From Clostridium sp. 'deep sea' (GTDB taxonomy: Bacteria; Bacillota; UBA994; PWPR01), in contig NZ_CP063353.1 of assembly GCF_014931565.1 (NCBI RefSeq), positions 1,612,001 to 1,676,000 on the forward strand: a stretch of 64,000 bases of DNA. Direction: 5' to 3'. Position 1 is the stretch's first letter. Each line of letters begins with the position of its first letter. Under the pieces are notes generated by a model. It worked only from the letters and a program-made list of their open reading frames with translations, was not told the DNA's origin and ran no database searches. Shown one piece after another: positions 55,888 through 57,094 of this stretch. Position numbers and translations under genes: made by a program.

Positions 55888-56487
55888 TTACTTTTTTACT
55901 TTCCATTCTTGCCACACTTTACCTACAAGTTCGGCATTAGGTTTTAAGGTTTTTTCACCTGGTACCCAATCTGCTGGGGTCGCTTCTTTTCCTTTACTAT
56001 TTCTTACATGCTGTAAGGCTTGAATTAAACGAATTGTTTCTGATAGGTTTCTACCTACTGAAGGTGTTACTATTTCTAAGGCCTGTACATTACCATCAGG
56101 ATCAATTATAAATCTGCCTCTATTATTAACAAACTTTTCTTCGTCGTATACTCCGTACATGCTACCAATTTTACCACCTTGATCAGATAACATTGGAAAC
56201 TGGGCTCCACCTTCTGCCATTTTGCTTAGCTCTTGTTCGTCCCATACTTTATGTACAAAAATACTATCAACACTAACTGTTAATACTTTTACACCAAGTT
56301 TCTGTAATTCTTTAAATTTGTCAGCAACTGCTGCAACTTCTGTTGCTCAAACAAAGGTGAAATCTCCTGGGTAAAAAACTAATAATACCCAATTACCTTT
56401 ATAAGAACTAAAATCAACTTTAGATAACTCACCTTTAATATAAGCAGGGGCAGAAAAGTTAGGGGCTGGTTTACCAACACTAATCAT
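55888..56487 (-). CDS. prxU: Selenocysteine-containing peroxiredoxin (UGA recoded)
   Basis: Open from the ATG at 56487 (AAGGAG upstream) to the stop at 55888, 199 residues, with one in-frame TGA at 56347-56349 at codon 47. Reading TGA as selenocysteine gives FYPGDFTFV-U-ATEV, the peroxiredoxin active site F-x-P-x-D-F-T-F-V-C-P-T-E with Sec at the peroxidatic cysteine. The frame continues to KVLTVSVDS and GRFIIDPDGNVQALE without another stop. The usual resolving-Cys motif VCPAxW reads ATPADW, and no Cys remains, so it acts as a 1-Sec enzyme. It detoxifies peroxides with thioredoxin or another reductant. A hairpin downstream of the TGA (AGCAAC/GUUGCU) is a SECIS candidate. Confidence 0.9.
56309..56349 (-). 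promoter_or_regulatory. Candidate SECIS element
   Basis: Immediately after the UGA the mRNA reads AGCAAC then GUUGCU about 13 nt later, with an alternative GCAAC-AGAA-GUUGC hairpin. Bacterial SECIS elements lie just downstream of the UGA. Structure is judged by eye only. Confidence 0.4.
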
Positions 56488-56760
56488 ATTTATCTCTCCT
56501 TACATGTATGTTTTACATAACCTTAGTCGTTAAACTTAAGATTAGTATTAACTAAAATCTACGTTTTATTGTTACTGTAACCTAAAGCAATTATTCAATT
56601 AACTACTATATAGTTTTAGTTTATTAGCCTTTACGTCATTTGAAAATCTACTTTAAAATTTGCCTACTTTATTTAAATTATAACATAACAAACTGCTTTA
56701 AAATATTAAAGTACTAACTTTAATAAAATCCTGCTAAAGTTAGTACTTAATATTTAGTCA

Positions 56761-57034: not shown

Positions 57035-57074
57035 GTGCTTATGCACATTATAATACTATTATGTGCATATGTCA
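57035..57074 (-). promoter_or_regulatory. Promoter and shared operator of the DUF5320 gene
   Basis: Minus-strand TATAAT at 57054-57049. Upstream of it, 57062-57074 holds ATGTGCATATGTC (plus strand), identical to the element at 59545-59557; downstream of it, TGTGC-TTAT-GCACA at 57035-57048 is palindromic. Confidence 0.7.
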
Positions 57075-57094
57075 ACAATAAAAGAATTTATTTT

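Follow-up and report, generated by a model that had tools for sequence, protein, structure and literature searches.

A predicted selenocysteine peroxiredoxin of the PrxU family without any cysteine in Clostridium sp. 'deep sea'

The window, i.e., the whole 64,000-nucleotide stretch that was analyzed (contig NZ_CP063353.1, positions 1,612,001 to 1,676,000), carries a peroxiredoxin gene, prxU, on the minus strand (Table 1). Translated with TGA read as selenocysteine (U), the gene gave a single chain of 199 residues with U47 in the motif FYPGDFTFV-U-ATE. The product begins with MISVGKPAPNF, contains EATPADWVPG near its C-terminus, ends in VKK, and has no cysteine. The initial annotation had described an in-frame UGA at the peroxidatic position of an otherwise intact 199-residue peroxiredoxin, with a resolving motif reading ATPADW and no Cys in the chain. 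The translation confirmed this description, and its coordinates, frame, and length were right, the minus strand being unstated there.

With translation table 11, only the 110-aa downstream ORF (55888-56220) remained. The initial annotation had expected these 110 codons to be called a fragment or pseudogene, but the PrxU model NF040737 is now in the library that NCBI annotates with, so modern annotation need not do so. An in-frame TAA at 56500-56502, five codons 5' of the start, and the Shine-Dalgarno-like AAGGAGAG indicate that no N-terminal part of PrxU was missed. In the region searched around the gene, neither a promoter-like site directly upstream nor a terminator was found.

Table 1. Features of the prxU locus, in window positions.
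Feature	Position	Strand	Remarks
prxU CDS	55888..56487	-	199 codons and TAA stop at 55888-55890; NCBIfam NF040737 match
TGA for selenocysteine, residue 47	56347..56349	-	Peroxidatic position of PxxxTxxU; TGA in 78/78 distinct Sec homologues
Bacterial SECIS hairpin	56318..56336	-	CAGC-AGUU-GCUG (56322-56333) forms the conserved upper stem with its loop, 17 nt after UGA; covariation, 65 class-A homologues
Codon 37, GTT (Val)	56377..56379	-	Cys at equivalent position in 75/78 Sec-PrxU
Codon 170, Thr of ATPADW	55978..55980	-	Equivalent of VCPxxW resolving Cys; Cys in 2/76 Sec-PrxU
Shine-Dalgarno-like AAGGAGAG	56494..56501	-	6 nt 5' of prxU ATG

The neighbors of prxU in the window were DUF5320, MinD-like ATPases, and FMN reductase, and the upstream part of this gene order was conserved in the genus mate L009. 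The upstream DUF5320 gene showed a perfect sigma-70 promoter match, TTGACA-17-TATAAT (window 57047-57075, minus strand). In Desulfobulbaceae relatives, rubrerythrin and a Fur-family regulator were located near prxU, a neighborhood that fits a putative role in peroxide defense. No trx gene was found beside prxU in the window.

In the NCBIfam search, the read-through protein matched the PrxU equivalog NF040737 at 336.4 bits against a cut-off of 270 (E 9e-101, residues 1-198), whereas the AhpC equivalog reached 181.6 bits, under its cut-off of 272. PrxU was the best model, and the other peroxiredoxin models that matched were all under cut-off. The Pfam domains AhpC-TSA (5e-36) and 1-cysPrx_C (1.7e-7) were also recognized. 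Because the read-through protein matches both AhpC-TSA and PrxU, the frame across the TGA is not a matter of chance. The AlphaFold model had a pLDDT of 93 and a pTM of 0.90, and its best PDB matches in Foldseek were 2-Cys peroxiredoxins and AhpC (TM about 0.85-0.90). The catalytic residues P40, T44, and R123 were invariant over 45 aligned PrxU sequences, and the window protein keeps every invariant column. The gene was the sole AhpC-type peroxiredoxin found in the genome. Although it is split in two by plain table 11 translation, the gene, judging from its sequence, belongs fully to the PrxU family and is a real selenoenzyme gene, not a pseudogene.

The TGA was present at the Sec codon in all 78 distinct Sec homologues from several phyla, window included, a sample weighted toward the window's own phylum and Desulfobulbaceae. 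Within the phylum, PrxU was above cut-off in 48 of 398 genomes, and each of the 48 had TGA. A sequencing error at this codon is very unlikely because the TGA is conserved in all 78 homologues. Compared with L009, the window protein showed 65% identity before the TGA and 70% after it, and third codon positions differed approximately 2-4 times as much as positions 1 and 2 on either side. TGA is also the ordinary stop of three other long ORFs in the window, and thus it is not globally reassigned.

The genome is a single contig of 3.83 Mb. The initial annotation had proposed to look for the Sec machinery, and selA, selB, selC, and selD were all found, together with four other genes containing in-frame TGA. 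The tRNA-Sec scored 75.9 bits and was called by ARAGORN as tRNA-SeC(tca); selA, selB, and selD were over their model cut-offs, with selA and selB adjoining each other. The other TGA-containing genes encode SelD (GGGU-SSK), GrdA (CFVU), GrdB (UGTC), and a TlpA-like protein (GTGUPSC), i.e., at least five selenoprotein genes, prxU counted, in a sampled selenoproteome. The last one is a TlpA/ResA-like lipoprotein with a UxxC motif (locus L105, 1423-2019, minus strand). A cluster at 2708000-2727000 (L106) comprised tRNA-Sec, selD, a TrxB-like protein fused to a Cys-less thioredoxin domain, TrxA (CEPC), and the glycine reductase genes grdE/A/B/C/D. The genome gave only two Pfam thioredoxin-domain matches, both in this selD cluster, one of them to the Cys-less domain of the TrxB-like fusion.

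The bacterial SECIS element has been defined by an apical loop of 3-9 nt with G in the first two bases, an upper stem of 4-16 bp, a spacing of 16-37 nt, and a minimum free energy of -7.5 kcal/mol or lower (PMC13188914). In the scan, 72 of 78 homologues satisfied the spacing and energy limits. One common hairpin was shared by 65 homologues, with a 4-nt loop, mostly AGUU or GGUC, placed 17 nt 3' of the UGA. In its 7-bp stem 94% of cells were paired, compared with 33-75% after the 3' side was shifted by 1-3 nt, and no shuffle out of 1000 reached the observed level. The pairs 14-23, 11-26, and 17-20 (base after UGA = 0) connect third base to third base, are 94% paired, and covary (A-U to G-C, others). 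The protein sequence alone would hardly explain this third-base covariation, which was counted across the homologues irrespective of shared ancestry. Most of the other 13 homologues had the hairpin loop 23-24 nt 3' of the UGA. A second type of PrxU SECIS, shifted by approximately 7 nt and often reading CAUAGC...GCUAUG, was observed in L091-L100, L055, and L056, a subclade with PTE after Sec.

The hairpin that the initial annotation had suggested looking for 3' of the UGA is thus present in the window, although most relatives have a stronger lower stem. The window copy retains the G-U loop and the upper stem CAGC/GCUG. In the register of the family it loses two lower pairs, and a bulged A is needed for three further pairs to form. 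The hairpin alone gave -5.7 to -6.4 kcal/mol and the constrained hairpin -7.0, against the published guideline of -7.5 (PMC13188914). The same lower-stem mismatches in the family register were found in L009. Free-energy z-scores of the window sequence alone were uninformative, and the SECIS was judged by comparison of homologues. Scanning the region around the UGA against Rfam yielded chance matches only.

The initial annotation had pointed out the missing resolving cysteine. It is indeed absent, i.e., Thr170, but this absence is the norm of the family, in which just 2 of 76 members have Cys there. The unusual position is residue 37, ten before Sec, where Cys was found in 75 of 78 Sec-PrxU; the exceptions were the window protein (Val), L053 (Tyr), and L037 (Arg). 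L053 has Cys elsewhere in its chain, and L037 was not accepted as another Cys-free example, given its missing N-terminus and low contig coverage. The window protein was the only complete Cys-free PrxU among the 78 homologues sampled. Cys37 is near-invariant in Sec-PrxU, compared with one of six sampled Cys-type peroxiredoxin relatives. No published role for it was found in the literature searched. Cys37 is not among the published criteria that define PrxU, and the window protein exceeds the NF040737 cut-off in spite of its Val37.

An N-terminal extension of approximately 35-45 residues with a GCxRP-type motif was counted in about 49 of 78 PrxU by an approximate pattern count, and it is absent in the window protein. 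In L046 (1480-1600), this extension was predicted at low confidence (pLDDT 42-66). The GCxRP-type Cys is a candidate thiol partner of Sec in the extended proteins. In the tree, the window protein had L009 as its sister (99/94), and the pair branched within extended PrxU that bear Cys37. L009 keeps Cys37 and has no extension. From this placement, the absence of the N-terminal Cys extension and of Cys37 in the window PrxU is read as secondary, most simply with the extension lost first and Cys37 later. The terminal branch of the window protein was long, 0.44 against a median of 0.18, and relaxed constraint is possible.

The long branch, the loss of Cys37 and the extension, and the weakened SECIS are also what would be seen if the locus were a pseudogene or carried a sequencing error, i.e., an ordinary peroxiredoxin in which TGA had replaced the Cys codon and which yields fragments only. 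This explanation is very improbable, as TGA occupies the site in every Sec homologue examined, the codon-position pattern of purifying selection continues downstream of the TGA, the genome holds the Sec machinery and further selenoprotein genes, and the nearest family is PrxU, not the Cys-type AhpC. Decoding of UGA as another amino acid, e.g., Trp, under a reassigned code would by itself be compatible with an in-frame TGA. However, it has hardly any probability, given the three long ORFs of the window terminated by TGA, the dedicated tRNA-Sec with the tca anticodon, the presence of selA/selB/selD in the genome, and the position of the TGA exactly at the catalytic Cys/Sec site. Pseudogene, reassigned code, and sequencing error were rejected for prxU.

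A less remote alternative, still unlikely, is that the Sec-PrxU is made inefficiently, with a weak SECIS and lost Cys partners, and represents a decaying member with a minor part in peroxide defense. The hairpin of 4-7 bp with a bulge, a competing upstream hairpin, the lower-stem mismatches shared by the genus mate L009, and the long window branch are in line with decay. However, the catalytic and invariant columns are all retained, and no other AhpC-type peroxiredoxin was found in the genome. The competing hairpin lies within approximately 14 nt of the UGA and would be melted by the decoding ribosome.

It is therefore proposed, with high confidence, that prxU encodes a 1-Sec peroxiredoxin in which Sec47 would be inserted via SelB and the SECIS, and its selenenic acid would be returned to the reduced state by an external thiol, most probably that of TrxA/TrxB. 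SelB would deliver Sec-tRNA-Sec to UGA47, guided by the hairpin just 3' of it. The Sec47 selenolate, positioned by Pro40, Thr44, and Arg123, would then reduce H2O2 or an alkyl hydroperoxide and become a selenenic acid. Because the chain has no Cys, an intramolecular or intersubunit selenenylsulfide with thiols of PrxU itself cannot form, and direct reduction of the selenenic acid would have to come from a thiol of another molecule. The best candidate reductant is TrxA (CEPC) with the TrxB-like protein, whose genes lie next to selD and those for glycine reductase, since both Pfam thioredoxin-domain matches of the genome fall in that cluster.

The window gene probably represents a working PrxU that is entirely without cysteine and turns over purely by external thiol, e.g., thioredoxin. 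In that case, PrxU could dispense with both the near-invariant Cys37 and the N-terminal GCxRP-type Cys, and comparison with Cys37-bearing PrxU would reveal the function of these conserved residues. In most PrxU, Cys37 and the Cys of the N-terminal motif are potential partners of Sec, and the window protein has neither of them. The Cys-free PrxU is a natural test of whether selenocysteine peroxiredoxins are reset by an internal or an external thiol.

The PrxU family itself is already known, and the novelty of the window protein is confined to its Cys-free state. PrxU was described from Eubacterium acidaminophilum in 2001 (Sohling et al., doi 10.1515/BC.2001.123, as cited in PMC9312934), and Sec-peroxiredoxins have been catalogued since that year (PMC9312934, PMC1794560, PMC13188914, PMC3091704). 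Like the E. acidaminophilum protein and NF040737, the window protein is a chain of AhpC type whose peroxidatic residue, in a TxxU motif, is Sec, and like most sampled members of the family it has no C-terminal resolving Cys. It differs from most sampled members in the absence of Cys37 and of the N-terminal Cys extension and in the weaker lower SECIS stem.

The seleno-peroxiredoxin CLOST_2406 of Clostridium sticklandii, with Sec84 in 240 aa (PMC3091704), is likewise a Sec-peroxiredoxin of an anaerobe with glycine reductase and Sec machinery (PMC3091704). In both length and position of Sec, CLOST_2406 is consistent with the N-terminally extended form, whereas the window encodes the short one, i.e., Sec47 of 199. 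Typical 2-Cys peroxiredoxins and AhpC share the fold and the PxxxT active site with the window PrxU, which has Sec in place of Cys, Thr170 in place of the resolving Cys, and no Cys whatever. Like 1-Cys peroxiredoxins and Sec-glutathione peroxidases, it would probably rely on one catalytic residue that an external thiol regenerates. Its sequence scores do not place it in those groups, as its best score was for PrxU and the other listed peroxiredoxin models were under cut-off.
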